In this document: positions 7,204-62,860 of the stretch, piece by piece
How positions within the stretch are numbered: position 1 is the stretch's first letter
Layout of the letters: each line of letters starts with the position of its first letter
Origin: Pseudomonadota bacterium
Lineage (GTDB): Bacteria > Desulfobacterota > Desulfobulbia > Desulfobulbales > JAHJIY01
Reading direction: 5' to 3'
Length of the DNA stretch: 64,000 nt
Assembly (NCBI GenBank): GCA_018823175.1
Contig: JAHJIY010000027.1
Coordinates: 62,001 to 126,000 of the forward strand
The notes under the pieces: model-generated
What the model saw: only the letters and a program-made list of their open reading frames with translations
The model's database searches: none
Told to the model about the DNA's origin: nothing
Translations under genes and position numbers: made by a program

Positions 7204-7233
7204 GCATTTTCAAAAAGTCGTAAAGATATTTTG

Positions 7234-41338: not shown

Positions 41339-41717
41339 TAAAAACAACGGGCATCAGAGTACGAAACAGCCGACCGTCTCGCCTCAAAAAATGGCTGACC
41401 CTGAAATCCTCGCCCCGAGTGATCGGACTGAAGATCAGACCATGATCAACGATAAGGAATTAAATATTCGAGAGCGGGTGAAGGATATCAGTCCGTGGCC
41501 TAAACAAGGGCCGGAGTGCTGGCCGACCCTGCGGGAAGTCAAATGCAAGCATATTAAAAATGTTCTGCTCCATGTGGAGGGCAACCGGACCAAAGCCGCT
41601 GAGATTCTGGGGATTGATCGCGTTTCTCTGTGGCGTCAGCTGAAAAATCTTGAAATTAGCTGGTCCGGATCGTCTGCAGCCGAACAGGAATTCCCGCCGG
41701 AAGCGGGTCGCGAATAG
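41325..41717 (+). CDS. Stand-alone Fis-type helix-turn-helix protein
   Basis: This 130-residue protein has an apparently disordered N-terminus of about 70 residues and a C-terminal Fis-family HTH (LLHVEGNRTKAAEILGIDRV, then SLWRQLKNLEI). Sigma-54 activators normally end with this domain, but no AAA+ domain is present here. The HTH is almost identical to that of the NtrC-type regulator at 62861 (GNKTKAAEILGIDRVSLWRK). It may bind the same sites as such activators and modulate them. It overlaps the upstream receiver gene by 14 bases and sits 4 bases from the kinase gene. Confidence 0.82.
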   Translation: MRYRNKNNGHQSTKQPTVSPQKMADPEILAPSDRTEDQTMINDKELNIRERVKDISPWPKQGPECWPTLREVKCKHIKNVLLHVEGNRTKAAEILGIDRVSLWRQLKNLEISWSGSSAAEQEFPPEAGRE

Positions 41718-41721
41718 CGCC

Positions 41722-43468: not shown

Positions 43469-43876
43469 ATGAAATCATTCCGTGTCCTGATAGTAGATGA
43501 CGAGCAGGAGTTTGTCGTAACCCTGGTAAAAAGGCTGCAAAAAAGAGGTGTTTGCTGTGCCGGAACATTCTCCGGAATCGCGGCCCTGGAGTTGGTGAAG
43601 GAGCAGTATTTCGATGTGGTTCTGCTCGACATGAAGATGCCTGACCTGGATGGCAACAAGGTCTTACAGTGCATAAAAACCATCAAACCGGACCTGCCGG
43701 TCGTCATTCTCTCCGGGCATGCCTCAGTAGCCGACGGCAAGGCAGGGCTGGCAAACGGGGCCTATGACTACCTGATGAAACCGGTGGAATTTGATTCTCT
43801 TCTGGAAAAGCTGCTGGCCACCAGGGAAAAATCATCCAGGGGATCACCTGACCCTGAGGTGATTAATATTTTTTAA
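43469..43876 (+). CDS. Response regulator receiver protein
   Basis: This 135-residue receiver-only protein has IVDDEQEF, phosphoacceptor Asp in VLLDMKMPDLDGN, SGHAS and Lys in MKPVEFD. It follows the dCache kinase by 73 bases and precedes the TauE/SafE exporter. The mirror-image system at 35634-37779 also has a kinase followed by a single receiver and then a transporter (nhaD). Confidence 0.88.
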   Translation: MKSFRVLIVDDEQEFVVTLVKRLQKRGVCCAGTFSGIAALELVKEQYFDVVLLDMKMPDLDGNKVLQCIKTIKPDLPVVILSGHASVADGKAGLANGAYDYLMKPVEFDSLLEKLLATREKSSRGSPDPEVINIF

Positions 43877-43939
43877 TTCATTTTTTGTTAACAACCGTAG
43901 TCCTTATTAAAATCTGTTTTGAGCAGGGGGAAAGATATT

Positions 43940-45241
43940 ATGCAATTTTTTAATCAATTGGGCCATTTCATGATAATGGGCGCCCGCGCCCACGCGAAAT
44001 GGGAAATCGAAGTTTCACTGCGGATCATGGGAGACCGCAAGAGGCTGGCCATCCTTGGCCTGCTGCTGATCCCCATCATCCTGGGCGGCATCGCCTTTGC
44101 CGATGAAATAGCCGGGGCGCTGCCGATGGTCCTGGGCGGCAAGAAGGCCTATAGTCCGGCTTTTTACACCAACACTATCTTTTTTGCCTCCATCGGCGTC
44201 GGACTTGGCGCCGGTCTGATCACCGGCTGCATCGGCGCCGGTGGCGGCTTTATCATCGCCCCGGCCCTGATGAGCGCAGGGGTTAAGGGTATTCTGGCGG
44301 TGGGCACCGATCTTTTTCATATCTTTGCCAAGGCGATCATGGGCAGCGTGCTGCACCGAAAACTGGGCAACATCTCGGTGTCTCTGGCCGGTACCTTTCT
44401 GATCGGCTCGATCGGCGGCGCCACCCTCGGCGGCTATATCAACCGCACCCTTTATGAACTTAATCCGGTCTTAAGTGACGCCTTCATCACCTCGGTCTAT
44501 GTCCTGATGCTTGGTTTTCTGGGGACTTATGCCCTCCTTGATTTTCTCAAATCCCGCAAGCCGGCCAAGGCCACATTCTCACCTGAAAGCAAGCAGGTCA
44601 AATCAAAAAAAGGCGAAGAATCCATGACCGGCCTTTCCCAGAAGCTGCAGGCAATGAACATCCCGCCCATGCTCCATTTTGACCAGGGCGTAGTGCCGGG
44701 CGGCCGCAAGATCTCGGCGATTTTTCTGGTGATCAGCGGCGCGATTGTCGGTCTGGCTGCAGCCATCATGGGAGTCGGCGGCGGCTTTCTGACCTTTCCG
44801 ATCTTTGTCTACGGACTGGGAGTCTCCTCAGCCACTACAGTAGGCACCGATATCTTCCAGATCATCTTCACCGCCGGTTATGCCGGACTTGGCCAATACG
44901 CAATCTATGGTTTTATCTTCTACACCCTGGCCATCGGCATGCTGCTCGGTTCCCTGATCGGCATCCAGATCGGCTCATTGGTCACCAAGGTCGTTTCCGG
45001 GACCACCATCCGTGGTTTTTATGCGATGGCCGTACTGGCCGGGTTCATCAACCGGGTCTTTGCCTTGCCCGGTAAACTCGCCAAGATGGATGTCATTGCC
45101 ATGTCGGACAAAACCGCCAAATTTCTTGAACAGATCGGGGTCTATCTGTTTTTCGTGGTCATTTTAATCTTCGCGGTCTGGGTCATCGCGACTTTCCTGA
45201 AAAACATCAAAGTATTGAAAGGCGAGGGGGTGCACGCATGA
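43940..45241 (+). CDS. TauE/SafE family anion exporter, long form
   Basis: ATG 43940 (GGGGGAAAG upstream) gives 433 residues. An N-terminal amphipathic region and a membrane segment ending with FADE precede two TauE repeats: GLITGCIGAGGGFIIAPALMSAGVKGILAVGTD near 95-125 and GLAAAIMGVGGGFLTFPIFVYGLGVSSATTVGTD near 270-305. A charged cytoplasmic loop (SRKPAKATFSPESKQ) separates them. The family exports sulfite, sulfoacetate or other organic anions; the substrate here is unknown. The ORF ends 4 bases into the next gene. An extracellular stimulus sensed by the upstream kinase may control it. Confidence 0.87.
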   Translation: MQFFNQLGHFMIMGARAHAKWEIEVSLRIMGDRKRLAILGLLLIPIILGGIAFADEIAGALPMVLGGKKAYSPAFYTNTIFFASIGVGLGAGLITGCIGAGGGFIIAPALMSAGVKGILAVGTDLFHIFAKAIMGSVLHRKLGNISVSLAGTFLIGSIGGATLGGYINRTLYELNPVLSDAFITSVYVLMLGFLGTYALLDFLKSRKPAKATFSPESKQVKSKKGEESMTGLSQKLQAMNIPPMLHFDQGVVPGGRKISAIFLVISGAIVGLAAAIMGVGGGFLTFPIFVYGLGVSSATTVGTDIFQIIFTAGYAGLGQYAIYGFIFYTLAIGMLLGSLIGIQIGSLVTKVVSGTTIRGFYAMAVLAGFINRVFALPGKLAKMDVIAMSDKTAKFLEQIGVYLFFVVILIFAVWVIATFLKNIKVLKGEGVHA

Positions 45242-45927
45242 TTGCGCATAAAAAAGAATTCACCGGCGGCCTGCTGCTGTTTATCGCTTTCTGGATCGTT
45301 TTTGTCATCGGCATGTCGCCGATCTTTGGCGACGGCAAGAATATCCTGAATTATATGGATAATCTCTACAACACCATTTCCAAAAAGTCGGCTTATTATA
45401 TTCCGGCCGTCAAGGAAAAAACTGTTGCTTACCAGGGTAAAATGGTTTCCTTCACCGTTAAGGGGAAAAACCCGGAACAGGCCGCAAGCATGGCCAAACT
45501 GTTTACCGCAGGCCAGGCTAAAGTCAGTCTCAAAGACGAGATTGTTAAGGTTGAAGGTGATTTCGGCCTGATCCTTGATAATATCATCAATGACGCGGAA
45601 GTGATGTTTGCCAATGACGGCAAGATGATCAGGGCCAAATACGGCTTACCGGAAAAACAGGCCTTGTATGATCTGTGGAACGCCATGAAATCGGCGGAAA
45701 AGGACTTGAACAAGCAAAAGAAGTTCAAGGAAGCCAAGATCATCAACCAGGTCCAGACCAAGGCGGTGGAACCGGCCTATAATTACTACGGGATCGAGGC
45801 CGAAGATATCAAATCCAAACTGGGGATTGTGGTTGCCTCGTTGGCCGGATACGTCATTTACACCCTGTGGTTCGGATTCTCCATCCTCTTTATGTTTGAA
45901 GGGTGGGGTCTGAAGCTTGAACACTAA
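45238..45927 (+). CDS. Membrane protein of unknown function coupled to the TauE exporter
   Basis: This 229-residue protein has an N-terminal membrane segment (about 10-28), a soluble region of about 150 residues (YQGKMVSFTVKGKNPEQA, NDAEVMFANDGKMIRAKYGLPEKQALYDLWNAM) with a Lys-rich helix, and a C-terminal membrane segment (about 197-220). It is not recognised as a known family. The 4-base overlap with the TauE gene makes it a likely exporter partner with a domain facing the periplasm. Confidence 0.8.
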   Translation: MIAHKKEFTGGLLLFIAFWIVFVIGMSPIFGDGKNILNYMDNLYNTISKKSAYYIPAVKEKTVAYQGKMVSFTVKGKNPEQAASMAKLFTAGQAKVSLKDEIVKVEGDFGLILDNIINDAEVMFANDGKMIRAKYGLPEKQALYDLWNAMKSAEKDLNKQKKFKEAKIINQVQTKAVEPAYNYYGIEAEDIKSKLGIVVASLAGYVIYTLWFGFSILFMFEGWGLKLEH

Positions 45928-46124: not shown

Positions 46125-48689
46125 ATGAATATTCTGCCTGAATTTATTAAAAACATCTTTACCCGACCATTAAGATCGGAGGCGGAATATTCAACCCTGC
46201 GCGAGTCCTTCCGCAAACATTACAATAGTTTCCGAGCCCTGCTGACCGCCAACAACACCGCCCTGGAGCTGATGGCCGAACTGGAGCAGACCTTGCAAGC
46301 CGGGCAACCTTTCAGCATGGCCTTTGTCCGTGGCCACTGTACCGCTTTAACCGTCAATGTTTACAAGATGATTCAACAGCTGCAGGAACTGGCGGACGGC
46401 AGATATCTGCAACTTACCCCGGTTTTCAAGGAAATAGCCGCTAGACTGGAAACGACCCTGGCCCGGGAGCCGGAAACGGTAAAAGGGAAACACATCCTGT
46501 CCATGGCTGAGATTGACCGGCATGCCGCTGATCAGGTCGGCGAAAAAATGGCTAACCTGGGAGAGGTGCGTAACCAGGTCGGCCTGCATGTTCCGGACGG
46601 CTTTGTGATCACGGCGACCGCCACCCGATTTTTTATCGAGCACAATAAACTGAAAGATGAGATCAATCGGCGCCTGAAAACCCTTGATCATGATAATCTG
46701 GAAGAACTTTATACGACCAGCGCCGCCATCCAGCAACTGATCAGCAATGCCCCCTTGCCAAGGGAACTCGCGGCGCAGATCAGCCAACACTACCGGCTTC
46801 TGGCTAGCCGAACAGATGCGCCACCCCTTGTCTCCTTACGTTCCAGCGCGCTCGGGGAAGACCGCGACAATATCTCTTTTGCCGGCCAGTACCGGACCCA
46901 ATTAAATGTCAGTGAAGAATTTATCGGACAAACCTATAAGGAAATTGTCGCCAGCAAATATAAAAGTCAGGCCTTGATTTATCGTTTGCAGCGGGGCTTC
47001 CGGCATCAGGATGTGACCATGTGTGTTGGTTGCCTGACCATGATTGACGGGATATGCAGCGGGGTTATCTATAGCCGCTCGCCCGATAATCCGCGCAGTT
47101 CATGGGTTTTGATCAGCGCCGCTCCCGGTCTCGCCGACCAGGTGGTGGACGGCACCGGCGCCACCGACTTTTTCCAGGTGGAGAGAAGCAGTCCCAATCT
47201 CATCCGAAAGAAAGAACTGCAAACCCGAATGATTGAGAATGATCATGCCCGGAACGCGAATCAAACTACCCTTAGCGATGAGCAGGCCGGAGAACTGACC
47301 CGGATCGCGGTGCGACTGGAAGAACATTTCGGCACTCCCCAGGATATCGAATGGTCGATAGAGCGAGACGGCAGGATCGTTATCCTGCAAAGCCGGCCGC
47401 TGGGCGGAACAACTCTGTCCGCTTTAGCGGCGCCGACCAATTTCCTGGCAGATCCTGGCCGATCAACGTTACTGACCGGCGGAGTTACCGCCAGTCGGGG
47501 TGTAGCCTGCGGCCCGGTATATATCGTCAAGTCAAATATCGACCTCTTGCAGTTTCCTAAAGGTGCGGTCCTGGTGGTCTGCCACCCCCTACCGGAATGG
47601 GCCACCCTGTTAAGTCGGGCGGTGGCGGTGATCAGTGAAACCGGCCAGGTGGCGGCGCATTTGGCCACGGTTGCCCGCGAATTAGGGATCCCGGCGATCT
47701 TTGCCATGACTGAGGCGACCGGTAAACTGGTTAATGGTCAATCGATCACGATCGATGCCACCGGCGGTTGCGTATATGAAGGGCGGGTCGAGGAGATTCT
47801 GGCCCAGGCGGCGCCGCCAAAAAATCTGATGGCGGGCAGTCCGCTCCATAATTTGCTCGCTGCGGCTTTAAAGATCATCGCGCCGCTTAACCTCACCAAC
47901 CCGGCCTCGCCTTATTTCAGGGCCTCTTCCTGTGAAACTCTTCATGACCTGACTCGTTTTTGTCATGAAAAGGCGGTGACCGAAATGTTTTCTTTCGGTT
48001 CAAGACACGGTTTTTCGGAAAAGGATGGCAAACGGCTGGTCGGGGAATCGCCTTTTGACTGGTGGGTGATCAATCTCGATGACGGCTTTCGGGAAGGATT
48101 TGACCGCCGGGAAAAATTCATCAATATCAACGATATCGTCTCAACACCGATGCTGGCCATCTGGCAGGGCATGACCGCCGTTCCCTGGCAGGGACCGCCG
48201 CCGGTCAGCCTTAAAGGTTTCGGCTCTATCCTTTTTCAATCAACCATGAACCCCAATCTTGATCCGGCGGTCCGTTCCACCCTGACCGCCAGAAATTATT
48301 TTCTGGTCTCGAAAAACTTCTGTAATCTGAGCGTCCGGCTTGGCTACCATTTTTCTCTGGTCGAAGCGCATTTAAGCGACCTTCTGACCGAAAACTATGT
48401 CAGTTTTCAGTTTAAGGGGGGGGCTGCCGATGAAAACCGCCGCCTGCAAAGAGTATTTCTGCTCAAAGACATTCTGCAGCAATTTGATTTCCGGGTGGAA
48501 CAAAAAGGCGATGCCCTGACCGCCCGAATCGAGAAAAAAACAGCCTCTTATCTCATGGCCCATTTAACCATTATCGGCTACCTGCTGATTCACACCCGCC
48601 AGATCGATATGGTCATGGATGATCAAGAGATGATCCAACATTACCGGAAAAAGATACTTGCCGATCTTAATGAGATTTTGGTCCGGTAA
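46125..48689 (+). CDS. PEP-synthase-like ATP-grasp/phosphohistidine protein with a novel C-terminal domain, paralogue 1
   Basis: The 854 residues contain an N-terminal helical region (1-135), a PEP/pyruvate-kinase ATP-grasp domain (ANLGEV, LRSSALGEDRDNISFAGQY, QDIEWSIERDG and ILQSRP), and a swivelling phosphohistidine domain (ISETGQVAAHLATVARELGIPA, H512). True PEP synthase or pyruvate phosphate dikinase would continue with a TIM barrel binding PEP; here the final 290 residues are different (CETLHDLTRFCHEKAV, NLSVRLGYHFSLVEAHLSD, FDFRVEQKGDALTARI). I read it as a phosphotransferase acting on an unknown substrate. The receiver gene at 48716 follows at once. A close paralogue is encoded at 54477. 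Confidence 0.8.
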   Translation: MNILPEFIKNIFTRPLRSEAEYSTLRESFRKHYNSFRALLTANNTALELMAELEQTLQAGQPFSMAFVRGHCTALTVNVYKMIQQLQELADGRYLQLTPVFKEIAARLETTLAREPETVKGKHILSMAEIDRHAADQVGEKMANLGEVRNQVGLHVPDGFVITATATRFFIEHNKLKDEINRRLKTLDHDNLEELYTTSAAIQQLISNAPLPRELAAQISQHYRLLASRTDAPPLVSLRSSALGEDRDNISFAGQYRTQLNVSEEFIGQTYKEIVASKYKSQALIYRLQRGFRHQDVTMCVGCLTMIDGICSGVIYSRSPDNPRSSWVLISAAPGLADQVVDGTGATDFFQVERSSPNLIRKKELQTRMIENDHARNANQTTLSDEQAGELTRIAVRLEEHFGTPQDIEWSIERDGRIVILQSRPLGGTTLSALAAPTNFLADPGRSTLLTGGVTASRGVACGPVYIVKSNIDLLQFPKGAVLVVCHPLPEWATLLSRAVAVISETGQVAAHLATVARELGIPAIFAMTEATGKLVNGQSITIDATGGCVYEGRVEEILAQAAPPKNLMAGSPLHNLLAAALKIIAPLNLTNPASPYFRASSCETLHDLTRFCHEKAVTEMFSFGSRHGFSEKDGKRLVGESPFDWWVINLDDGFREGFDRREKFININDIVSTPMLAIWQGMTAVPWQGPPPVSLKGFGSILFQSTMNPNLDPAVRSTLTARNYFLVSKNFCNLSVRLGYHFSLVEAHLSDLLTENYVSFQFKGGAADENRRLQRVFLLKDILQQFDFRVEQKGDALTARIEKKTASYLMAHLTIIGYLLIHTRQIDMVMDDQEMIQHYRKKILADLNEILVR

Positions 48690-48715
48690 AATCTAATCTT
48701 TACGGAGAACTGATC

Positions 48716-49087
48716 ATGGGTGAAAAAATTAAAATCCTGCTGGTTGATGACGAAGTTGATTTTCTGGAAACAACCAGTAAAAGGTTGTCTCGCCGCGGCT
48801 ATCCGGTGCAAAGCGCGACGAATTGCGTCGAGGCCATGAAAATCATCGTTAGTGGCTGGCCCGAAGTGGTAGTTCTTGATGTTATGCTGCCCGACAAGGA
48901 CGGGCTCCAATTTCTGCGGGAAATCAAACAACAATGGCCGGCCATAACAGTCATCCTGCTTACCGGACATGCCTCAATGCAGGTGGGCATACAAAGCCTT
49001 GATTACGGGGCAAGCGACTACTGCTTAAAACCAATCGAGCTTGATGAATTGATTGAAAAAATCACAATCGCCTATCATGAAAAATAA
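48716..49087 (+). CDS. Response regulator receiver protein
   Basis: This 123-residue receiver-only protein has LVDDEVDF, phosphoacceptor Asp in VLDVMLPDKDGL, TGHASM and Lys in LKPIELDE. It lies 26 bases after the ATP-grasp paralogue; the other paralogue also has a receiver gene at its 3' end. The histidine kinase at 49274 is the obvious partner. Confidence 0.87.
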   Translation: MGEKIKILLVDDEVDFLETTSKRLSRRGYPVQSATNCVEAMKIIVSGWPEVVVLDVMLPDKDGLQFLREIKQQWPAITVILLTGHASMQVGIQSLDYGASDYCLKPIELDELIEKITIAYHEK

Positions 49088-49273
49088 GTGAGCTCATCGA
49101 AATAATCACATTTTTTTATGTAATGAATAAGATGTCCGGTTGAGTTTTTTAGTTTATCTTGGATCAGTCATCTTTTAGGAAGGTCATATTGACCGAAAAA
49201 CAATTATATATTATTGAAGCGACTTCAAAGTTTCGCGAACAGACAATCACCTAAAATTGCCAGAGATAGTCAG

Positions 49274-50704
49274 ATGATAATGAAAAAACAAGAATATACC
49301 ATCCGCCAGCGGATCATTACCCTGTATGTCGTGGTTTTCGGCTTCATCGCTATTCTTGCCAGCAGCTACTCCTGGCAGATCTACTCCCTGGAAAATAAAC
49401 TGGTTGCCCTGGAAAACTTCCATGACTTCTTCGATAACGTGCTTGAACTGCGGCGTTATGAGAAAAACCTGCTTTTTGATGTCGGCTCCGACAACTTGAA
49501 AGATATCCTTTTTTATCTGGGGAATATCGAAGAAGAGGCTAATAAGCTGTATCCGGATATTGAACAGGTGGTCGGCAAAGAAAAATTTGCGAATTTCAGG
49601 AGTAATCTGGCCAGTTATAAAAGTATTTTTGAGCCGGGTCGATCTTTAGTAAAACTCGATGCTGAAGCTGTTCGTTATCATGGCAAGGCGATGGTCGATT
49701 TCAGTCGTGATCTCCTTACCCTCAAACAAGCCCGCATCAGAAAGGGTCTGAAATTAATTCTTTACAGCTTTATCGGTCTGACCGCCGGATTCTTCTTTTT
49801 TATCCTGCTGGTTTTTCAGCTCCAGGCTAAAAGTGTTATCGGCCGGCTCGCTTTTGTCCAACAGGCTACCAAGGATCTGCTCCAAGGCAAATTCATGCCG
49901 ATCATTGATAATGCCATAAAAAATGATGAGGTATCCAACCTGATCCTGGCTTTTAATAAAATGGGGACCGAGATCGAGATCAAACAGGAACAGCTTGTCC
50001 AATCCAGAAAGCTGGCCGCAATCGGTACCTTTTCTTCCGGAATTGCCCATGAGCTCAACAATCCTTTAAATAATATTTCCCTCTCCGCCGATGCCCTGCA
50101 TGTAGAATATGACGAACTGTCGGCCGAAGAGGCCAAGGAGATCATCAACGATATAATTCTGCAAACCGAACGGGCCAGCGAGGTAGTCAAGGACCTGCTC
50201 GATTTTTGTCGGGACAAAACGCCGACCTCTTCCCGGCTTAATATCAAAAACGTGATCAGGGCCACGATTAAACTGATTGCCAACCAGTTACGCTTGAACG
50301 CAATCTGGCTGGAAGATTACATTCCTGACAATCTGCCGCTGGTGGTCGGCGATCACCAGAAACTGCAACAAGTTTTTCTGAATTTGTTTGTCAACGCCAT
50401 CCAAGTCATGCCGGAAGGCGGGTTGATTCATCTGGATGCCAAACTGGAACCGGAAGGATACTTACGGATAGATGTCAATGATACCGGAATCGGCATTCCC
50501 CCGGAGAAAATAGAAGACATTTTTGACCCTTTTTACACAACTAAACCGGTAGGGCAGGGGACAGGGCTGGGGCTGTCGATCGTTTACGGGATTGTCAAAA
50601 AACATGGCGGTTATATCGAGGTTAACAGCAAAATCAACATCGGCACCACTTTTTCAATCTTTCTGCCAATCAAGACCGAGAACGATCCCGAGGAAAAACC
50701 ATGA
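49274..50704 (+). CDS. Membrane sensor histidine kinase
   Basis: With ATG 49274 the protein has 476 residues (TTG 49214 would add 20 non-conserved residues). Two membrane segments (about 15-35 and 165-185) flank an extracytoplasmic helical domain with no recognisable ligand fold. A HAMP-like linker leads to HisKA with HELNNPLNNI and a full ATPase domain (NLFVNAIQVMPEGG, DTGIGIPPE, FDPFYTTK, GTGLGLSIVYG). The stop overlaps the NtrC-type regulator start by 4 bases (ATGA), so they form a pair. Confidence 0.92.
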   Translation: MIMKKQEYTIRQRIITLYVVVFGFIAILASSYSWQIYSLENKLVALENFHDFFDNVLELRRYEKNLLFDVGSDNLKDILFYLGNIEEEANKLYPDIEQVVGKEKFANFRSNLASYKSIFEPGRSLVKLDAEAVRYHGKAMVDFSRDLLTLKQARIRKGLKLILYSFIGLTAGFFFFILLVFQLQAKSVIGRLAFVQQATKDLLQGKFMPIIDNAIKNDEVSNLILAFNKMGTEIEIKQEQLVQSRKLAAIGTFSSGIAHELNNPLNNISLSADALHVEYDELSAEEAKEIINDIILQTERASEVVKDLLDFCRDKTPTSSRLNIKNVIRATIKLIANQLRLNAIWLEDYIPDNLPLVVGDHQKLQQVFLNLFVNAIQVMPEGGLIHLDAKLEPEGYLRIDVNDTGIGIPPEKIEDIFDPFYTTKPVGQGTGLGLSIVYGIVKKHGGYIEVNSKINIGTTFSIFLPIKTENDPEEKP

Positions 50705-52056
50705 AGATGATCCGGGTAGCGATAATTGATGATGAGGAGACCGCCGGCAGTATGATCAAAAGGATTCTCGACAAGGAAGGATTTGAAGTTGAAACCTTTC
50801 TGGCCGGCCAGCCTTTTCTGAACCGGATGCGCCAGAATCCTTTCCAGTTGGCTTTTATTGACCTGAATCTGCCGGATATTGACGGCATGGAGATCCTGCG
50901 TCTGCTCAAACAGACCGATGAGGAAACCGAGGCGATCATCATTACCGGCCATGCCTCCATTGAGTCGGCGATCGAGGCCACCCGTCAGGGGGCGTTCCAC
51001 TACCTGACCAAGCCGAGCCGCCGCCACGACATTCTGCTTCTGGCCAATAGGGCCCGGGAGAAAATCGCCCTGCGCGAGGAAAACAAAAAGCTCAAACTGG
51101 CGATGGGCAAAGACAATCTGGTCGCCGGTTTTGTCGGATCAAGCCCGGCCATGCAAGAGGTCTTCGCCATGGTCAAAAAGGTGGCAATGGTCAATTGCAA
51201 CGTCCTGCTCCAAGCGGAAACCGGCACCGGCAAACAACTGGTCGCCCGGGCCATTCATGCTCTCAGCCCCAGAAAAGACCAGCCCTTTGTCTACTTCAAC
51301 TGCGGAGGGTTCACCGAAGAACTGATCTGCAGCGAGTTGTTCGGCCACGAAAAAGGATCTTTTACCGGGGCCTCATCAACCAAGATCGGGTTATTCGAAT
51401 CGGCGGCCGGCGGCACGGTGCTTCTTGATGAAATTGGCGAAATGCCCCTGTCGATGCAGATCAAACTTCTCCATGTTCTCCAGGAGCGGGAGGTCTTGCG
51501 GGTTGGCGGCACCAAGCCTATTGAACTGGACATCAGAATCATCGCCGCCACCAACAAAGACCTGAAACAGGCCATCCTGAAAGGTAGCTTCCGCGACGAT
51601 CTGTTTTACCGGTTAAATGTGGTTGGTCTCCACCTGCCGCGTCTGACCGAAAGGCGTGACGATATCCCTTTGCTCATCTCCCATTTTATCGAAAAATTCA
51701 ATCTGGCCTTCAACAAGGAGATCAAACGAATCTCGCCCCACGCCATGGAACTGCTGATGTCCTACAATTTCCCCGGCAATGTCAGGGAACTGGAAAATAT
51801 CATCCAGCGAGGGGTGGCCCTGGCCGAAAACGACGAATTGAAGGTCGTCGACCTACCGGCATCCTTGCGCGAACTTGCGATGCGCGGGTTTAACGGCGAA
51901 GGGATGCCGACCCTGGCCGAGATGGAAAAACACCATATCACCAAGGTTCTCAAACTTACCGGCTACAATAAGCCCCAGGCCGCCGCCATTCTCGACATTC
52001 CCCGCACCACCCTCTGGCGCCGGATGCGGACCTACAATCTGACCGATGAGAGTTAA
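50701..52056 (+). CDS. NtrC-family sigma-54-dependent response regulator
   Basis: The 451 residues comprise a receiver domain (phosphoacceptor D54, Lys104), AAA+ with Walker A AETGTGKQ (172-179), the sigma-54 contact loop GSFTGA (219-224; Ser in place of the usual Ala), Walker B LLDEIGE (241-247), and a Fis-type HTH (NKPQAAAILDIPRTTLWRRM). It is coupled to the kinase at 49274. Palindromes at 52109 and 52189 and a sigma-54 promoter at 52551 lie directly downstream, before a TauE gene, so that gene is the likely target. Confidence 0.94.
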   Translation: MKMIRVAIIDDEETAGSMIKRILDKEGFEVETFLAGQPFLNRMRQNPFQLAFIDLNLPDIDGMEILRLLKQTDEETEAIIITGHASIESAIEATRQGAFHYLTKPSRRHDILLLANRAREKIALREENKKLKLAMGKDNLVAGFVGSSPAMQEVFAMVKKVAMVNCNVLLQAETGTGKQLVARAIHALSPRKDQPFVYFNCGGFTEELICSELFGHEKGSFTGASSTKIGLFESAAGGTVLLDEIGEMPLSMQIKLLHVLQEREVLRVGGTKPIELDIRIIAATNKDLKQAILKGSFRDDLFYRLNVVGLHLPRLTERRDDIPLLISHFIEKFNLAFNKEIKRISPHAMELLMSYNFPGNVRELENIIQRGVALAENDELKVVDLPASLRELAMRGFNGEGMPTLAEMEKHHITKVLKLTGYNKPQAAAILDIPRTTLWRRMRTYNLTDES

Positions 52057-52108
52057 AAATAACCGGCTCCCTTTTTTAATGATCGTCAACTCTGCTCCTG
52101 GCCGACCC

Positions 52109-52135
52109 ATTCTTGTTTCATCTTGAAACAAGAAT
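52109..52135. promoter_or_regulatory. Perfect palindrome, candidate enhancer site 1
   Basis: ATTCTTGTTTCA (52109-52120) and TGAAACAAGAAT (52124-52135) are perfect 12-bp arms with a 3-bp spacer. The site lies about 430 bases before a sigma-54 promoter and 53 bases after the NtrC-type gene. Without a T-run it is unlikely to be the terminator of that gene, though it could serve both roles. Confidence 0.65.
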
Positions 52136-52188
52136 ATTGATTTACAGTTTTTATCCCAGTCCCCACAATGGTTTAACACCCATCCCAT

Positions 52189-52213
52189 CTTTTGTTCCAT
52201 TCTGAAACAGAAA
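52189..52213. promoter_or_regulatory. Imperfect palindrome, candidate enhancer site 2
   Basis: TTTTGTTCCA (to 52199) and TGAAACAGAAA (52203-52213) repeat the geometry of site 1 (TGTTyCA-N3-TGAAACA), with centres 79 bp apart. Paired sites are typical for NtrC-type activators. Confidence 0.55.
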
Positions 52214-52298
52214 CGTTATCCGGTTCAATTTGAAAAGAGCATTATTTTAGCCGGAATCAGCGAACAAACCCTTTACTGTTAAAGATCAGGAAAAATAA

Positions 52299-52409
52299 TT
52301 GAAGCTCCCCGCGGCAAGCCACGGGGAATCTCCGTATGGAAGGATACTTTCATCAGATTCGCTCACTTACCCCGCAGCAAGCTGCGGGGAATGCGTTTCG
52401 CTTTGCATG
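52299..52409 (-). repeat. Dispersed double-hairpin repeat, copy 2 (111 bp, inverted relative to copy 1)
   Basis: Reverse complement of the element at 29635-29769. Hairpins are CCCCGCGGC (52307-52315) with GCCACGGGG (52318-52326), and CCCCGCAGC (52370-52378) with GCTGCGGGG (52381-52389), each with loop AA. The joining segment and ends (TTGAAGC and TTTGCATG) are conserved. It lies between the enhancer-like palindromes and the sigma-54 promoter. Confidence 0.8.
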
Positions 52410-52550
52410 TTCAATAGTAACCAGCCACATTCAACCACTCATTTGAAAGTTAGCGACCCTACTTCCTTTAAATTTCATCTGCTCGGTAACACCCCGAAAT
52501 AAAAGAGTTTATCAAAAAACATTCGATATTTTTCCCCTTTGACAACGGCC

Positions 52551-52566
52551 TGGCATCACCATTGCA
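52551..52566 (+). promoter_or_regulatory. Sigma-54 promoter of the second TauE operon
   Basis: TGGCATCACCATTGCA matches TGGCAC-N5-TTGCW at all but one position. It lies 119 bases before the ATG at 52686. The 629-bp gap 52057-52685 is thus a control region with two palindromes, the repeat and this promoter, and no gene. Confidence 0.8.
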
Positions 52567-52685
52567 AAAGTAGCCGACCAAACGGGATCTGCCGGTTCCG
52601 TTAGCCTTTGTTGATCAGAAACTGAGTTTCAGGACTGAAAAACTTAAAACCAATTTAATACTAAACTGGAGGAGCAATAAAAATC

Positions 52686-53612
52686 ATGTGGCATATGTAT
52701 CTTCCCATCGCGGGAAACAGCGTAAATATTGTAACGATTTTCGGGATGGGGGGCTTTGTCGGTCTTCTGTCCGGAATTTTCGGAGTTGGGGGGGGCTTTC
52801 TCTTGACCCCTTTGCTGATTATGTTCGGTATCCCACCGACCGTGGCGGCAGCTTCCGACTCCAATCAGATTGTCGGCGCCTCAACTTCAGGCACCCTGGC
52901 CCATTGGCGCCTGGGTAATGTCGATTTCAAAATGGGCTTATTGCTGCTGATCGGCGGTATCATCGGCGGCACCCTGGGGGTTCAGGTGATCAAGGTCCTG
53001 CGGGCCATGGGCAATGCCGATTTCCTGATCAACATCACCTATGTTTTAATGTTGGGCGGGGTTGGCGCCTATATGTTTATTGAAGGCATTCAGAGCTTCA
53101 AGAACAAGGACAAGGTTGTCGATACCCAGAGCACCAAGAAAGAATCTGTTTATGCCAAGATGCTCAATAGTCTGCCTCTGCAGAGCAAGTTTGAAAAATC
53201 CCGGGTCGAAATCTCAATGATTCTGCCCCTGTTTTTTGGCACCCTGGTAGGTGTACTCGCTGCGATCATGGGTGTTGGTGGCGGTTTTATTATGGTACCG
53301 GTTATGGTTTACCTTTTGAGAATGCCGATGCATGTTGTGGTAGGCACCAGCCTTTTTCAAATTCTTTTTACCTGTATCAACGTTACGGTAATGCAAGCTT
53401 ACAGCAATCATACCGTGGATTTTGTTCTGGCCTTGCTGCTGATGCTTGGCTCAGCAATCGGAGTTCAGATTGGATCTAAAATTGGCAAAAAACTCCATGG
53501 TGATCAGTTGAAAATTTTTCTTGCCGCCCTGGTTCTTTTGGTCTGTGTCAAGATGCTCGTTGGCCTGCTGATGGCACCCGACATCATGATCGCTCTGGCT
53601 GGAGGACATTGA
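52686..53612 (+). CDS. TauE/SafE family anion exporter
   Basis: This 308-residue protein has 7-8 membrane segments and two internal repeats: GLLSGIFGVGGGFLLTPLLIMFGI (about 22-45) and GVLAAIMGVGGGFIMVPVMVYLL (about 183-205). A charged loop between the halves is near 130-160. GGAGG lies just before the ATG. The sigma-54 promoter at 52551 should drive it. The next gene encodes a TIGR02186-type protein, a frequent neighbour of TauE proteins. The substrate (sulfite, organic sulfonate or other anion) cannot be told from sequence. Confidence 0.88.
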   Translation: MWHMYLPIAGNSVNIVTIFGMGGFVGLLSGIFGVGGGFLLTPLLIMFGIPPTVAAASDSNQIVGASTSGTLAHWRLGNVDFKMGLLLLIGGIIGGTLGVQVIKVLRAMGNADFLINITYVLMLGGVGAYMFIEGIQSFKNKDKVVDTQSTKKESVYAKMLNSLPLQSKFEKSRVEISMILPLFFGTLVGVLAAIMGVGGGFIMVPVMVYLLRMPMHVVVGTSLFQILFTCINVTVMQAYSNHTVDFVLALLLMLGSAIGVQIGSKIGKKLHGDQLKIFLAALVLLVCVKMLVGLLMAPDIMIALAGGH

Positions 53613-53613
53613 G

Positions 53614-54384
53614 ATGATTAAAAATATACTTATAACCATATCATTAGTTCTGACGGCTCTAATCTCTCTGCCCCAGACAGGTTCTGCTGCTGAGATTTCT
53701 TTGAATATCGCGCCAACGACCGTTGAGATTACCACCTTCTATAATGGCAGTACCATAGAGGTGAAGGGAGATGTCGCGGCCGATGCCGAGGTGCTGGTTC
53801 TGGTCAGCGGTAGTGGTGAAGAACTACATGTTAAGAAAAAGGGCAAAGTTGGCGGACTGTTCTGGATGAACGTTGGCGACATGACCTTTGAGAATGTCCC
53901 TCGCGTCTACATGATTTACACCGGCAAGGAGCTGGCTGATAAACTCGAGAACAAATCAATGGGTCTTGGTTTTAATGCCCTTGAGGGGGTAGTGGAAATC
54001 AAGCCGGAAAGTGAAGATAACAGCTTCTACTTTAAAGAATTTGTTCGTCTGAAGGAGAGTCAGGGACTGTACAGCAAAAGTGGTGAAGCTGTCACCTATG
54101 GTGCCACCAGTAACGGTGTCAGATCTTTTCAGGCTACTCTGACCATTCCGCCCCAGATGAAACAGGATTCATACACGGTTGCCGCATATGCCGTTAAAGA
54201 CAACCATGTCCTGGCTAATTCCACCGCCAAGCTCGAATTGAAGATGGTCAGCTTTCCCGCCCAGTTGTCCCGTCTGGCCTTTAACCATTCCCTGATGTAT
54301 GGGATAATGGCAGTAATTATTGCAATTCTTGCCGGCCTGATTATCAGTGCGATTTTCAAGAGCAAGGGTGACGGAGCCCATTAA
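53614..54384 (+). CDS. TIGR02186 / Alph_Pro_TM-type exported protein with C-terminal membrane anchor
   Basis: This 256-residue protein has a signal peptide (cleavage near GSAAE, about 27), an extracytoplasmic beta-rich domain (TTFYNGSTIEVKGDVAADAEVLVLVSG, GGLFWMNVGDMTFENVPRVYMIY) and one membrane helix near the C-terminus (about 228-248). The pattern fits the TIGR02186 family, which usually sits beside TauE/SafE exporters. One base separates it from the TauE stop. It is probably a periplasmic partner of the exporter. Confidence 0.8.
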   Translation: MIKNILITISLVLTALISLPQTGSAAEISLNIAPTTVEITTFYNGSTIEVKGDVAADAEVLVLVSGSGEELHVKKKGKVGGLFWMNVGDMTFENVPRVYMIYTGKELADKLENKSMGLGFNALEGVVEIKPESEDNSFYFKEFVRLKESQGLYSKSGEAVTYGATSNGVRSFQATLTIPPQMKQDSYTVAAYAVKDNHVLANSTAKLELKMVSFPAQLSRLAFNHSLMYGIMAVIIAILAGLIISAIFKSKGDGAH

Positions 54385-54409
54385 TATCTAGTTGTAACAA
54401 AAATAACCT

Positions 54410-54441
54410 GGGTGGTTCAGGGGCCAAATCCTGAACCACCC
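54410..54441 (+). terminator. Perfect 12-bp hairpin after the TauE/TIGR02186 pair
   Basis: GGGTGGTTCAGG (54410-54421) pairs with CCTGAACCACCC (54430-54441) around an 8-base loop. No T-run follows, so it may be a partial terminator or a processing site before the next gene 35 bases on. Confidence 0.55.
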
Positions 54442-54476
54442 TCCCCGAACAGAAAAGGCAATAGAGTAGAGAAACA

Positions 54477-57059
54477 ATGATGATGCAAAGATTTTCAGAT
54501 TGGATAAAGCAGAGAATTCCGGGTTATACCCGGCGTAGTACCACTCTGCCGTTCTCGATGCTGTTCTCGAGATTCCAGGAGATCCTTGCCCTGAACAATC
54601 AGGTGCTGGAGACTATTGCCGGCGCCAATGACAAGTTGAGCGGAGACTACGTCTTTGACCAACATTATATCCACGTTACCTGTGGACAATTGATAGAAAT
54701 GGTCCAGAAACTGATTAATAATCTGGACGTAATTGCCCCGGGCAAATACCCGGACCTGAATAGAAGCTTCCAGGAAATTGAGAGTGAAATAAGAGCGACT
54801 CTCGCCGGAAAGATGCATGGCCCCGAGTCTGAGTTTGTTATCCCCTATAAGATGATTACCAAAGATTTAAGTGAAACGGTTGGGGGTAAAAATGCGAATC
54901 TGGGTGAACTGAAAACCTATCTCGGCACCACCATTCCCAACGGATTTGCGATCAGCTGCAGCGCCTTCTGGGCCTTTATGGAATATAACGGCCTGGAACC
55001 CTATATTAAGAAAATTACCGATGCCTGGCTTGATGGCTCCCTGGAGCTTGAGCCGGCCTCGAAACAGATAACTGAAAAAATTCTGGCGGGCCGGTTGCCG
55101 GCTCGTCTGGAAAAAGAGCTGGCCAAAGCGATATCGAACCTGGCCGGCAACTCAAAAGAAAGAGATCTTTTCCTGGCGGTACGTAGTAGCGCCCTGGGTG
55201 AAGACAGTAAACTGACTTTTGCCGGTCAGTACCTGAGTCTGATTAATGAACCAGCTGCCAACCTGCGCAAAGCCTACATCATGGTTCTGGCCAGCGCCTA
55301 CAGTAGCACCGCGATGGAATATCGGCGCCGCAAAGGATTCAAGGAGGTAGAAGTTGCGATGGCGGTTGCCTGCCAGAAGATGGCAAAACCGAAGGCCAGT
55401 GGGGTTATGTATACCCTTGACCCGCTCAACCCGGAAAAGGACACCATGTTATTGAGCGCCACCTGGGGTCTTGGTGGACCGGTAGTTTCCGGGCGCGCCA
55501 CTGCGGATCATTTTGTGGTAGACCGGACTTCACCCCATCGTGGCCTGGAAGTGAAGGTGGTTCGGAAGGAATCAATGCTGACCGGACTTCCTCAAGGCGG
55601 TACGGGTCTTAGACCTGTAGAAGAAGAACTGCAGACCAGCCCTGCTCTTAATAATGGCCAGATCACCCGCCTGGCGGCAACCGGTCTGGCCATCGAAAAA
55701 TACTTCAACCGACCGCAGGATATTGAATTCGCGGTTAGTGAAACGGGTGAAATCACCATCCTTCAGAGCCGGCAGCTCACGGTGCGACCCCATAAAACTC
55801 CCCATGCCGCTGAACTTGCCGACTTATCGGCCAGGTATCCGGTAATTTTCCGGGATCGGGGTGTCATCGCCCAGCGCGGCATTGCCAGTGGTCCGGTTTT
55901 TCTGGTCAGGAATGAAGATGATTTAAAGGATTTTCCGGTCGGCTCAATTCTGGTCACCAGGTTGGCTTCACCGCTTCTGGCCAAGGTGATAATGAAAGCC
56001 TCCGCAATTATTACCGACGTTGGTTCGGCCACCGGCCATCTGGCTACCATTGCCCGGGAATTTAGGGTTCCGGCCCTGTTTGATACCGGGATCGGCACGA
56101 CGGAACTTAGCCAGGGCCGGGAGATCACCCTCGATGCTGAAGAAAATGTGATCTACCAGGGAGTGGTCAAAGAGTTGTGTTATTACAATCTGGTCGAGGA
56201 TAGTATCGAGGAAACCTTTGAATATCGGCTGTTGCGCCGAGTTCTCAAAAAGATAGAACCACTGCGGCTGCTTGATCCCTCGGAGCAGAATTTTACCGCC
56301 CGGAATTGCCGAAGTCTCCACGACATTACCCGCTTCATCCATGAAAAAGCGGTGGATGCGCTTATTGATCTTAATTACTACCAACATCATGATCTTAAGA
56401 CGATGGCCGGTAAATTAAAGTGGGACATTCCGCTTGATCTGGTCATGATCGATATCGGTGGCGGTCTCTGCAAACCGACCGCCCAACCGGCAGTGATTGT
56501 GCCGGAAGATATCTGTTCGGTGCCGATGCAGTCCTTGCTCAAGGGTTTGAAGCACCCCGGCGCCTGGGACAATGAACCGATGTCGGTTGATTTCGGCAGC
56601 TTCATGTCCAGTCTGACCAGAACCAGTCCGGCCGAACTTTCCAGTCCCCGCCAGATCGGCCAGAACCTGGCGGTGATCTCCAAAGAATATGCCAATGTAA
56701 GTTTACGCCTCGGTTATCACTTTACGATGATCGATTCATATATAAGCGCCAATCTCAATGACAATTACGCCTATTTCCGCTTTTTTGGCGGGGTCACCGA
56801 TTTAAACCGTCGGTCGCGCCGGGCAAAGTTTCTCGGAGAGGTCCTGGCACACTACGATTTTCGGGTTGAACTGCATGGTGATCTTGTGGTGGCCCGACTA
56901 AAAAAACTCGACGAGCACAGCATGCGGCAGCGGCTGTATCTGCTCGGCCTTCTGGTCGGCTTTACCCGACAGCTGGATGTAAAAATGATCAGCGAAGGGC
57001 AGGTCGATGTGTATGTCAAAAAACTTAAAAACTTATTGGAGGAAAACCATGAGCAATAA
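54477..57059 (+). CDS. PEP-synthase-like ATP-grasp/phosphohistidine protein with a novel C-terminal domain, paralogue 2
   Basis: The 860 residues share the architecture of the protein at 46125: N-terminal helical region, ATP-grasp domain (VGGKNANLGELKTY, VRSSALGEDSKLTFAGQY, QDIEFAVSETGE), phosphohistidine domain (ITDVGSATGHLATIAREFRVPA, H521) and the same distinctive C-terminal domain (CRSLHDITRFIHEKAV, NVSLRLGYHFTMIDSYISA, YDFRVELHGDLVVARL). There is no PEP-binding barrel. It follows the second TauE operon; its last 11 bases overlap a receiver gene. Substrate unknown. The ATP-binding motif GGKNANLGEL is better preserved than in paralogue 1. Confidence 0.8.
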   Translation: MMMQRFSDWIKQRIPGYTRRSTTLPFSMLFSRFQEILALNNQVLETIAGANDKLSGDYVFDQHYIHVTCGQLIEMVQKLINNLDVIAPGKYPDLNRSFQEIESEIRATLAGKMHGPESEFVIPYKMITKDLSETVGGKNANLGELKTYLGTTIPNGFAISCSAFWAFMEYNGLEPYIKKITDAWLDGSLELEPASKQITEKILAGRLPARLEKELAKAISNLAGNSKERDLFLAVRSSALGEDSKLTFAGQYLSLINEPAANLRKAYIMVLASAYSSTAMEYRRRKGFKEVEVAMAVACQKMAKPKASGVMYTLDPLNPEKDTMLLSATWGLGGPVVSGRATADHFVVDRTSPHRGLEVKVVRKESMLTGLPQGGTGLRPVEEELQTSPALNNGQITRLAATGLAIEKYFNRPQDIEFAVSETGEITILQSRQLTVRPHKTPHAAELADLSARYPVIFRDRGVIAQRGIASGPVFLVRNEDDLKDFPVGSILVTRLASPLLAKVIMKASAIITDVGSATGHLATIAREFRVPALFDTGIGTTELSQGREITLDAEENVIYQGVVKELCYYNLVEDSIEETFEYRLLRRVLKKIEPLRLLDPSEQNFTARNCRSLHDITRFIHEKAVDALIDLNYYQHHDLKTMAGKLKWDIPLDLVMIDIGGGLCKPTAQPAVIVPEDICSVPMQSLLKGLKHPGAWDNEPMSVDFGSFMSSLTRTSPAELSSPRQIGQNLAVISKEYANVSLRLGYHFTMIDSYISANLNDNYAYFRFFGGVTDLNRRSRRAKFLGEVLAHYDFRVELHGDLVVARLKKLDEHSMRQRLYLLGLLVGFTRQLDVKMISEGQVDVYVKKLKNLLEENHEQ

Positions 57060-57435
57060 TAAACAAACCAACATCCTGATCCTCGACGACGAACCAATCG
57101 TCGGCAAACGACTAAAACCATCCCTGGAGAAAAAAGGCTACCTGGTGGAAACCTTTACTGAAAGTCTCGAGGCGTTAAAACGGATCAGGGAACATAATTT
57201 CGATATCGTAATTACCGATCTGAAGATGGAAGGAATCGACGGCATGCAATTTCTTTCCGAGGTTAAAGAACGATCACCCCGGACCGAGGTGATTGTTATC
57301 ACCGGTTTTGCCACCATGGAAACCGCCAAGGAATCATTCCAGAAAGGGGTGTTCGATTTCCTGGCCAAACCTTTCAAACTTGGCGAAATCACTGAGGTCA
57401 TCCGAAAGGCTGAGAGTAAACAACAGAACATATAA
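57049..57435 (+). CDS. Response regulator receiver protein
   Basis: ATG 57049 (TTGGAGGAAAA upstream) gives 128 residues. It is receiver only: LDDEP, phosphoacceptor Asp in VITDLKMEGIDGMQ, TGFATM, Lys in AKPFKLGE. The 11-base overlap with the ATP-grasp paralogue couples their translation, as in the first copy where a receiver gene also follows. Confidence 0.87.
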   Translation: MSNNKQTNILILDDEPIVGKRLKPSLEKKGYLVETFTESLEALKRIREHNFDIVITDLKMEGIDGMQFLSEVKERSPRTEVIVITGFATMETAKESFQKGVFDFLAKPFKLGEITEVIRKAESKQQNI

Positions 57436-57476: not shown

Positions 57477-58274
57477 ATGATTAAAACTCTCGTTGATTTA
57501 AATGAAAACCTGGCATCAAGTATTGCCCTCAGATACGCGTCCCATCTTAGTAAACTTGTCGAATTGCAGATGCAGATCATTCATGTGGAAGAAGTTGACC
57601 ATGAGCAGCGGGCCGGTGGTTCAGGCTGGGTACGGAAAACCTGGGAAAGAGGGGTCAAGGACGCGGGTGCGGCCGCCATCAGCCGACTGCTGAAAACCGA
57701 AAAAGTTGATTGCACCTTCGCGGTCGCTCCGCGGATCGGGATCGGCGATCATGACTCTGAGATCCTGGAAGAGCTTATTGTCTCCGGTCATGAACTGTTC
57801 ATCGAAGGAATTATCAGTACATCGAAGATTGGCGATTTTTACAAACTGATCACCAACAAACTCTTTAGCAAAGCACCATGTCCAATGTTGATCGTTAAAA
57901 ACCTGATTATCAATAACAAAGTGACCCTGATCTGCGGCGATGGAGTTGATCACCAGAGCATGATCACCCAATTCAGCAAAATTTTTCGGGGCGCTAAACT
58001 GGACCTGGAACTGATCTATTACAAATTTCAGGAAAGTAAAGAGTTGCTTTTTCTGGACAAAAGTGAGGCCGGCAGTGTGTTGACCGAAGCAGAGACCATT
58101 CTTGCAGCGGCCGGACTGATGGTTGGCAACAGCACAGTGGTCTGCGGCTCGCCGGAACAGGGCGGGGATTATCTTGGCAATTGCGGGTTGGTCGTTTCGA
58201 CCTTTCCGACCAGAAAAGGCCCTCGCATGGAGCTCCTGGCCAATTCCCCGGCGCCGCTCTTGCTTTGCAGATAA
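57477..58274 (+). CDS. Universal stress protein-like protein (tandem domains, divergent)
   Basis: This 265-residue soluble protein has two alpha/beta halves of the UspA type: the first starts IKTLVDLNENLASSIALRYASHL and ends CPMLIVKN; the second contains VTLICGDGVDHQSM and ends APLLLCR. The nucleotide-binding glycine motif is not well preserved. It is the first of three genes (with 58310 and 59268) that look like a stress/transport operon. Assignment rests on fold pattern and context. Confidence 0.65.
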   Translation: MIKTLVDLNENLASSIALRYASHLSKLVELQMQIIHVEEVDHEQRAGGSGWVRKTWERGVKDAGAAAISRLLKTEKVDCTFAVAPRIGIGDHDSEILEELIVSGHELFIEGIISTSKIGDFYKLITNKLFSKAPCPMLIVKNLIINNKVTLICGDGVDHQSMITQFSKIFRGAKLDLELIYYKFQESKELLFLDKSEAGSVLTEAETILAAAGLMVGNSTVVCGSPEQGGDYLGNCGLVVSTFPTRKGPRMELLANSPAPLLLCR

Positions 58275-58309: not shown

Positions 58310-59164
58310 ATGAGAATATTAGTTGCAATGGACACCAATAAATATAGCGCCGAAATCATTAGTGACGTAACTCAACTGGCGGCCAATACCTGGGCCGATA
58401 TTACCTTGCTGGCCGTACAAGCCGGTGGCGGTAATGACCAACCCGACCCGGACCTGGTCAAGGCGCTCAGTCAAAATCAGCAAAACTTTTTCGGCCAATT
58501 CCAGGCAGGGGAACTGCCCCACGGGGAAGCTGATCCGCAAAGATTTAATAAGGTTACGGCCGGAACCTGGCAGACCAGCGGCACGGGCCGCAAAGAATTC
58601 ACCCTGAAGATCAGGACCGGGGCGCCGATCAAGGAGATCCTGGCCGAGGCTACCGAACAACAATGCGACCTGATCATCCTCGGTTGCAGTAAGGACAACG
58701 GCTGTCAATGGGACACCGAAATCGACCTGCCACAGAAAATTGCCCGGGATGCAGGGTGCTCGGTGCTGGTAATCAAGGAGGGGCAGATCCCCAAAAAAAT
58801 CACTTGCTGCCTTGACCAGAATCAGGTTAGTCAAGATTCTTTAGAGATGGTCAATCAGATCGTTAACCTGCATCAAGCAGATTTGAAAATTGTCGGTCTG
58901 ACCGGTCCCAAGGGACTGCCGGGGAAAGGGGAGGTCGAAAAGAAAATGCAGGAGATCCTCCATTATTATTCGGCCCGCAAAGTCAACACCCTGATCAAGC
59001 TGGTTGACAACGAAGATCTGGAAGAATTTGTCGAGCGCGCCACCCGCGAGGGGATGATCGCCCTATGGATGGGCAAAAAATCTCTGCTGGGTAAAATATT
59101 TTCCAAAGACCTGGTCGGTAAACTGGTAGCTACCAGTAATTCTTCGGCTCTGATCTTAAGATAA
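58310..59164 (+). CDS. Universal stress protein (UspA family), tandem
   Basis: This 284-residue protein starts MRILVAMDTNKYSAEIISDVTQLA and reaches the typical Usp core IRTGAPIKEILAEATEQQCDLIILGCSKDN and CSVLVIKEGQ near residues 100-160. A second, less canonical half follows (ITCCLDQNQVSQDSLEMV, ending SSALILR). It is separated from the previous Usp-like gene by 35 bases with a GGGAGG ribosome site. Usp proteins bind nucleotides and respond to starvation or stress. Confidence 0.8.
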   Translation: MRILVAMDTNKYSAEIISDVTQLAANTWADITLLAVQAGGGNDQPDPDLVKALSQNQQNFFGQFQAGELPHGEADPQRFNKVTAGTWQTSGTGRKEFTLKIRTGAPIKEILAEATEQQCDLIILGCSKDNGCQWDTEIDLPQKIARDAGCSVLVIKEGQIPKKITCCLDQNQVSQDSLEMVNQIVNLHQADLKIVGLTGPKGLPGKGEVEKKMQEILHYYSARKVNTLIKLVDNEDLEEFVERATREGMIALWMGKKSLLGKIFSKDLVGKLVATSNSSALILR

Positions 59165-61173: not shown

Positions 61174-61617
61174 TCAATGTCCTACTGCCAGCAAACCGCT
61201 GGCGGCCAGGGCCAGAATAACCACTTCGGCAACAGCCATAATGCCCATTGCCTTATCCCCACGTTTAAAAAGACCAGGCGCAATTACTGAATAACAAACG
61301 ATGGTCACGCCGGACAGGATCGCAATCGGCAGAAAGTTCAGGAAATCCCCTTTACCGAGCAAAGGCATCCAGGCCCAGCCGGTGATCAGATGATCGCCAT
61401 GCAGAAAATTTTCGTTAACCGCCACCAGATACTCATGGACCGGCTGCCCCCACATACTGGCCACCTTGTCGAGCGGCACCGCCGGGGTCATGATTCCGAA
61501 AACATAGAGCGCAAAGGTAACGAACATCATCACCAGGCCGATCAACATGCCTTTTTCCAGAATATTTGCGTAGAGCACCTGCTCCTGAGTCGCTTGTAAA
61601 GTTGGTTCATTTGTCAT
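61174..61617 (-). CDS. Small membrane protein, DUF1634-like, partner of TauE
   Basis: This 147-residue protein has about four membrane segments (near 22-45, 68-80 short, 92-115 and 123-145) and a loop with WGQPVHEYLVAVNENFLHGDHLITGW. The topology and position, 18 bases after a TauE gene on the same strand, fit the DUF1634 proteins often paired with TauE/SafE exporters. Family membership is tentative. Confidence 0.7.
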   Translation of the reverse strand: MTNEPTLQATQEQVLYANILEKGMLIGLVMMFVTFALYVFGIMTPAVPLDKVASMWGQPVHEYLVAVNENFLHGDHLITGWAWMPLLGKGDFLNFLPIAILSGVTIVCYSVIAPGLFKRGDKAMGIMAVAEVVILALAASGLLAVGH

Positions 61618-61635
61618 GATAGTATCCCTCCGGTA

Positions 61636-62826: not shown

Positions 62827-62860
62827 CGTTAGTACAGAAAAATGACCCCGGCAATATTTT

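Follow-up and report, generated by a model that had tools for sequence, protein, structure and literature searches.

The window (the whole 64-kb stretch of DNA analysed here) encodes two proteins, P0001 and P0002, which by their sequences appear to belong to the dikinase (PEP synthase/PPDK) superfamily and to carry an acceptor domain that is new to it. This C-terminal domain (CTD), common to both proteins and ~290 residues long, is a previously undescribed protein domain, and among the sampled genomes it is found almost only in those that bear DsrA. With modest confidence, we read P0001 and P0002 as ATP-dependent phosphohistidine enzymes whose acceptor domain has been replaced, and which act in a conserved sulfur-oxyanion transport module with TauE.

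The ORF list places the two proteins in a tandem pair of cassettes, each with a TauE, a PEP-synthase-like protein and a receiver; gene calls are mechanical ORF picks. TauE-1 and TauE-2 each sit two genes upstream of P0001 and P0002, respectively. The kinase and activator genes at 49214-52056 are assigned to cassette 2 because loci L039 and L040 keep the same order. The features are as follows.

41650-43395, + strand: histidine kinase with two TM segments, upstream of cassette 1 (ORF and TM estimate; kinase identity by sequence reading, without a Pfam scan)
43469-43876, + strand: single-domain receiver upstream of TauE-1 (ORF; groups with receivers REC16)
43919-45241, + strand: TauE-1, TSUP transporter of cassette 1 (Pfam PF01925, E 2.1e-34)
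45238-45927, + strand: TauE-1 partner, 229 aa, two predicted TM segments and a 164-residue loop (ORF; TM estimate)
46125-48689, + strand: P0001, 854 aa, PEP2 type (Pfam, alignment of relatives, tree); N-terminal helical extension, ATP-grasp 136-427, phosphohistidine domain 477-548 (H512), CTD ~560-854
48716-49087, + strand: single-domain receiver after P0001 (groups with DVU0247-like receivers; 5/5 catalytic residues present)
49214-50704, + strand: histidine kinase of cassette 2 (HisKA and HATPase_c by Pfam)
50701-52056, + strand: NtrC-type sigma-54-dependent response regulator of cassette 2 (ORF; position matches an L062 gene with Pfam-verified Sigma54_activat/Response_reg)
52551-52566, + strand: putative sigma-54-type promoter TGGCATCACCATTGCA upstream of TauE-2 (motif match)
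52686-53612, + strand: TauE-2, TSUP transporter (Pfam PF01925, E 8.8e-52)
53614-54384, + strand: Alph_Pro_TM protein, PF09608/TIGR02186, with an N-terminal hydrophobic segment and a C-terminal TM segment (Pfam E 5.6e-49; TM estimate)
54477-57059, + strand: P0002, 860 aa, PEP1 type (Pfam, AlphaFold, alignment of relatives, tree); helical extension ~26-110, ATP-grasp 133-445, phosphohistidine domain 487-556 (H521), CTD ~570-860
57049-57435, + strand: single-domain receiver overlapping the end of P0002 (listed ORF 57007-57435)
57477-58274, + strand: diverged universal-stress-type protein (cluster relative L106 matches Usp, E 6.9e-6; no Pfam match of its own)
58310-59164, + strand: universal stress protein (Usp, E 5.5e-10)

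For the second receiver, the ATG at 57049, which lies 11 bases within P0002, is a likelier start than the listed 57007. Both transporters score well above the PF01925 cut-off of 32.6 bits (TauE-1 119.7, TauE-2 176.6), and the 229-aa partner of TauE-1 matched no family in the Pfam scan. The initial annotation had described a repeated layout of TauE with a partner, the ATP-grasp/histidine protein, a receiver, and a kinase or Usp. TauE, the CTD protein and the receiver do recur in both cassettes; the partner of TauE-2 turned out to belong to the known family PF09608/TIGR02186, and while a Usp is present at 58310, the gene that directly follows the second receiver encodes a universal-stress protein that has diverged. 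On the minus strand, 61174-63985 contains another TauE gene, the third (61636-62616), beside a small gene and one for an NtrC-type regulator, and lacks a PEP-synthase-like protein.

Domain architecture of P0001 and P0002

The initial annotation had read the two as PEP-synthase-like paralogues that keep the ATP-grasp motifs and the phosphohistidine; their ORFs lie where it had put them, the CTD motifs it quoted are in place, and the domain reading holds. PPDK_N is matched by P0001 (E 2.5e-80) and P0002 (E 4.1e-78), Pfam finds the PEP-utilizers phosphohistidine domain in both, and H512 and H521 occupy aligned positions. The two share 34% identity overall and 35% in the CTD, and each retains all ATP-grasp catalytic residues and the histidine. 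Conservation is similar across the 83 full-length relatives, in which the phosphohistidine is kept in 82, the ATP-grasp lysine in 76, the arginine, glutamate and glutamine in 78 each, and the second arginine in 76. Domain architecture is fixed across the long-frame loci, where the helical N-terminal extension is common to all examined relatives except cut ones; fusions of the CTD protein to a receiver, kinase or TauE were absent from 15 such loci. Six CTD proteins have degenerate ATP-grasp residues and an intact histidine (L059:4096-6786, L061:458-3007, L068:89-2770, L080:11332-13737, L083:3481-6186 and L096:8228-10858). Since these copies have lost ATP-grasp residues and mostly adjoin an intact paralogue, their sequences suggest non-catalytic, pseudo-enzyme partners in some lineages; the loss of these residues in some tandem copies weighs against our preferred explanation.

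In known members of the superfamily, the same catalytic domains are combined with other acceptor domains. PEP synthase is the best NCBIfam match (TIGR01418, 311 and 305.9 bits for P0001 and P0002), and it has the same order of ATP-grasp followed by a swivelling phosphohistidine domain; however, its barrel is replaced by the CTD, the proteins carry an extra helical N-terminus of ~120 residues, and the scores are less than half of the 739.75-bit cut-off. Rifampin phosphotransferase (NF041857; PDB 5hv1) likewise shares the ATP-grasp and histidine domains and differs in its acceptor domain (201.6 and 197.1 bits, below the 999-bit cut-off). In that enzyme the acceptor domain lies between the ATP-grasp and histidine domains, whereas in P0001 and P0002 the CTD comes last, and its sequence and predicted fold differ.

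The CTD itself had been proposed to be distinct from the PEP/pyruvate barrel, and every comparison agreed. It has no Pfam match even at E<=10, PEP-utilizers_C (the barrel, PF02896) is absent from both proteins in the Pfam scan, a PDB sequence search with the CTD found no credible relative, and the CTD profile gave no score against the barrel of the genome's true PEP synthase. In that true PEP synthase (contig C55), the same kind of Pfam scan found the barrel at E 1.2e-55, and its absence from P0001 and P0002 is therefore no failure of method. AlphaFold models were confident (mean pLDDT 87 for P0002 and 86 for the CTD alone) and predict the CTD to be a mixed alpha/beta fold with no eightfold barrel. 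Foldseek searches with the modelled CTD against the PDB and viral models found nothing at E<=0.001; the weak leads were an 80-column match (E 0.05) to the arginine-kinase catalytic domain and matches to small YbjN/secretion-chaperone-like folds, of which YbjN gave no match when profiles were compared. On the Pfam, profile and fold evidence, we reject a PEP/pyruvate barrel as the identity of the CTD. One could still read the proteins as variant PEP synthases or pyruvate-binding enzymes whose barrel has diverged beyond recognition, as their N-terminal two thirds are closest to PEP synthase (TIGR01418; 2ols). Yet barrel similarity is missing in sequence, profile and fold alike, the predicted secondary structure has no eightfold beta/alpha barrel, the score is well below the PEP synthase cut-off and the genome owns a true PEP synthase. 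We consider this reading largely refuted and very improbable.

Eight CTD residues are invariant (H615, D616, H622, E623, H748, G771, R782 and D834 in P0002 numbering), and the charged ones among them, all but G771, may line a pocket. These residues would suit a small-molecule kinase, in which the CTD would bind a metabolite, to be moved or used once phosphorylated, while the receiver and kinase genes would regulate expression only. The superfamily has many acceptor domains, such as those of rifampin phosphotransferase and phenylphosphate synthase, and a Desulfovibrionaceae-type subgroup (L189, L191-L197) carries an extra lectin/laminin-G-like domain of ~215 residues after the CTD (weak Pfam matches, best E 3.4e-6), which also fits. 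On the other hand, a metabolic enzyme would not usually be paired so constantly with single-domain receivers, and we saw no biosynthetic or catabolic genes travelling with the CTD gene. We regard a small-molecule kinase as a possible but unlikely account. Elsewhere in the window's genome (L183, contig C45), two neighbouring bacterial genes at 151-3717 and 3717-7229 code for phosphohistidine and ATP-grasp domains of the glucan water dikinase type, and the product of the second gene is a fusion with a xylose-isomerase-like barrel.

The conserved neighbourhood and its Desulfovibrio counterpart

The initial annotation had suggested that the CTD is linked to TauE and receiver genes, a link that proved to be conserved. 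Neighbours were counted up to four genes and 5 kb away from the CTD gene in 68 loci whose upstream flank reached 4.5 kb or more; these loci were chosen by CTD similarity and not by their neighbours, and the sample favours the P0002 type. A receiver is present near 58 (85%), TauE near 52 (76%), a histidine kinase near 41 (60%), Alph_Pro_TM near 39 and Usp near 32, and in 34 of the 68 loci TauE lies exactly two genes upstream of the CTD gene. The window's genome has eight TauE genes in 4.1 Mb, from which we estimate a chance of ~2% that TauE falls within 5 kb of a random gene; set against 76% of relatives, the link between CTD and TauE is beyond chance. The contigs of the genome's other five PPDK_N genes carry no TauE. 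About a quarter of the 68 relatives are without a nearby TauE, which counts against our preferred explanation. In the receivers of 62 operons, the phosphoacceptor aspartate, the lysine and the acidic pair are conserved throughout, and the fifth position is threonine in 61 and serine in one. The receiver gene often overlaps the neighbouring CTD gene. A phosphatase often accompanies P0001's half of the family, either a calcineurin-like phosphoesterase convergent to several PEP2-type genes (L064, L080, L082, L083, L095 and L096) or, in Desulfovibrio clusters, a dual-specificity phosphatase.

Strong sigma-54-type elements were found upstream in 25 of 69 TauE operons, as compared to a mean of 0.95 in mononucleotide shuffles. 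In the window, the site at 52551-52566 is found together with a gene for an NtrC-type activator, although a single match in 64 kb is unremarkable. From this candidate -24/-12 element upstream of TauE-2, cassette 2 may be under sigma-54 control.

The proposal that the module is a wholly undescribed system did not survive, as a counterpart exists in Desulfovibrio. Insertions in DVU0251-DVU0245 give nitrate resistance, and transposon mutants of the cluster have been phenotyped (Korte et al. 2014, PMC4001038). Disruption of the cluster also causes a mild defect on thiosulfate, and a leaky thiosulfate transporter was proposed, with uptake suggested (PMC4001038). The cluster (DVU0251-DVU0245/Dde_0597-Dde_0605) shares with the CTD module a TauE, a small protein, a PAS histidine kinase, a 119-aa receiver and a PPDK-like protein. 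DVU0246, at 2235 bp and 744 aa, has listed domains and a length that fit ATP-grasp, histidine domain and CTD (PMC4001038). In a genome family reached through locus L076, L164 and L172 follow the published gene order, with TauE, a 194-224-aa protein, a phosphonate-binding protein, a PAS kinase, a 119-120-aa receiver and a CTD protein, and L172 also has a dual-specificity phosphatase. Relatives at the place of DVU0246 in several genomes, these two included, have the CTD and fall into the half of the tree to which P0001 belongs; judging from synteny and length, DVU0246 itself probably has the CTD as well.

The two settings also differ. The nitrate cluster adds a phosphonate-type (PtxB-like) binding protein and a dual-specificity phosphatase, neither of which adjoins P0001, its receiver comes before the PPDK-like gene rather than after it as in the window, and its small partner is non-homologous to the window's: the 229-aa TauE-1 partner and the DVU0250-like protein are not alignable. 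The setting of the P0001-type module is thus already partly known genetically, and because the gene sets are similar and not identical, the nitrate phenotype is transferable to P0001 only with care. The CTD, its breadth and the chemistry of the protein are not described in the nitrate-cluster study (PMC4001038), and in the literature available to us we found nothing on TIGR02186, or on the CTD module beyond that study.

Mutants of the receiver, the kinase and the dikinase-like protein have the same nitrate phenotype (PMC4001038), which favours a reading in which the CTD protein would act as phosphodonor to the aspartate of the neighbouring receiver. Driven by ATP and releasing AMP, it would take the part of a histidine kinase and sense the cell's energy charge. 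The adjacency of the receiver, its conserved catalytic residues and the frequent gene overlap described above fit such a role. Sulfate reducers make much AMP, which would also be in keeping with it. However, the modules often include an ordinary histidine kinase able to serve the receiver, and we know of no dikinase histidine that phosphorylates a receiver. This reading seems to us quite unlikely.

Distribution, dissimilatory sulfite reductase and proposed role

A profile search had been suggested as a check on whether the domain is known; it showed the CTD to be common in the window's phylum and to belong to no known Pfam family. It is present in 107 of 297 sampled genomes of that phylum, across 38 family codes (a hand count) and often in multiple copies, and in 41 of 59 genomes of the family reached through L076. 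At least 562 relatives occur across the species genomes scanned. These extend to at least five other phyla, with MAGs of Nitrospirae, Gemmatimonadetes, Myxococcota, Terriglobia and Ignavibacteria among the matches listed. The family tree has two deep halves, one of the P0002 type with TauE and Alph_Pro_TM, the other with P0001 and the Desulfovibrio type. A role in anti-phage defence was also considered and rejected, as there was no PADLOC match.

The distribution of the CTD follows that of dissimilatory sulfite reductase. In the same 297 genomes, dsrA (called at E<=1e-100) is present in 144, and in 102 of the 107 genomes with the CTD (Fisher p 3e-38, not corrected for ancestry); the five exceptions are 62-80% complete, and the window's genome carries dsrA. 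Within one phylum, this co-occurrence is partly shared ancestry. Outside it, dsrA was found in 12 of 12 tested genomes behind other CTD loci, mostly of other phyla, and in Gemmatimonadota only 6 of 395 genomes have dsrA and the CTD is found only in the seed genome. Because of these two results, shared ancestry alone is no ready explanation of the tie. There are also 42 dsrA genomes without the CTD, several with shorter dsrA matches and from few families, which perhaps have another sulfur physiology.

Under our preferred reading of P0001 and P0002 as phosphohistidine enzymes of a transport module, we infer ATP use, the direction of transport, the oxyanion, the acceptor and a regulatory role for the CTD module. 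A sensor kinase and a sigma-54 activator would turn on an operon of TauE/TSUP, its membrane-anchored partner, the phosphohistidine protein, the receiver and universal-stress proteins. The ATP-grasp part would phosphorylate the swivelling histidine (H512/H521) with release of AMP, and the phosphorylated histidine would then swing to the CTD, where the phosphate could be handed to an acceptor that the CTD chooses, for which the receiver, the membrane partner and a metabolite are candidates. Phosphorylation of this acceptor would control how a sulfur oxyanion, be it sulfite, thiosulfate or sulfate, is taken up or released via TauE, and nitrate might leak through TauE or pass for its substrate. 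As transporters of the TauE/TSUP family may work in either direction, the export proposed in the initial annotation is one of two possibilities, and the phosphorelay it proposed would be a further inference. The TauE/SafE (TSUP) and TIGR02186 families that adjoin P0002 as a pair would here be tied to a phosphohistidine protein and a receiver.

Our findings describe an undescribed domain, often in several copies per genome, that is tied to transporters and signalling in DsrA-bearing genomes. Why sulfate reducers become resistant to nitrate when a poorly annotated cluster is disrupted, a matter relevant to souring control in oil fields, can now be put as a testable question that concerns a single enzyme and the acceptor it serves. 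More broadly, and tentatively since we think it unlikely, microbes with DsrA may use a new form of signalling, in which a phosphohistidine protein that is driven by ATP, forms AMP and has an acceptor domain of its own would pass phosphate to a dedicated receiver or to the transporter partner, such that the energy state of the cell would set sulfur-oxyanion transport.
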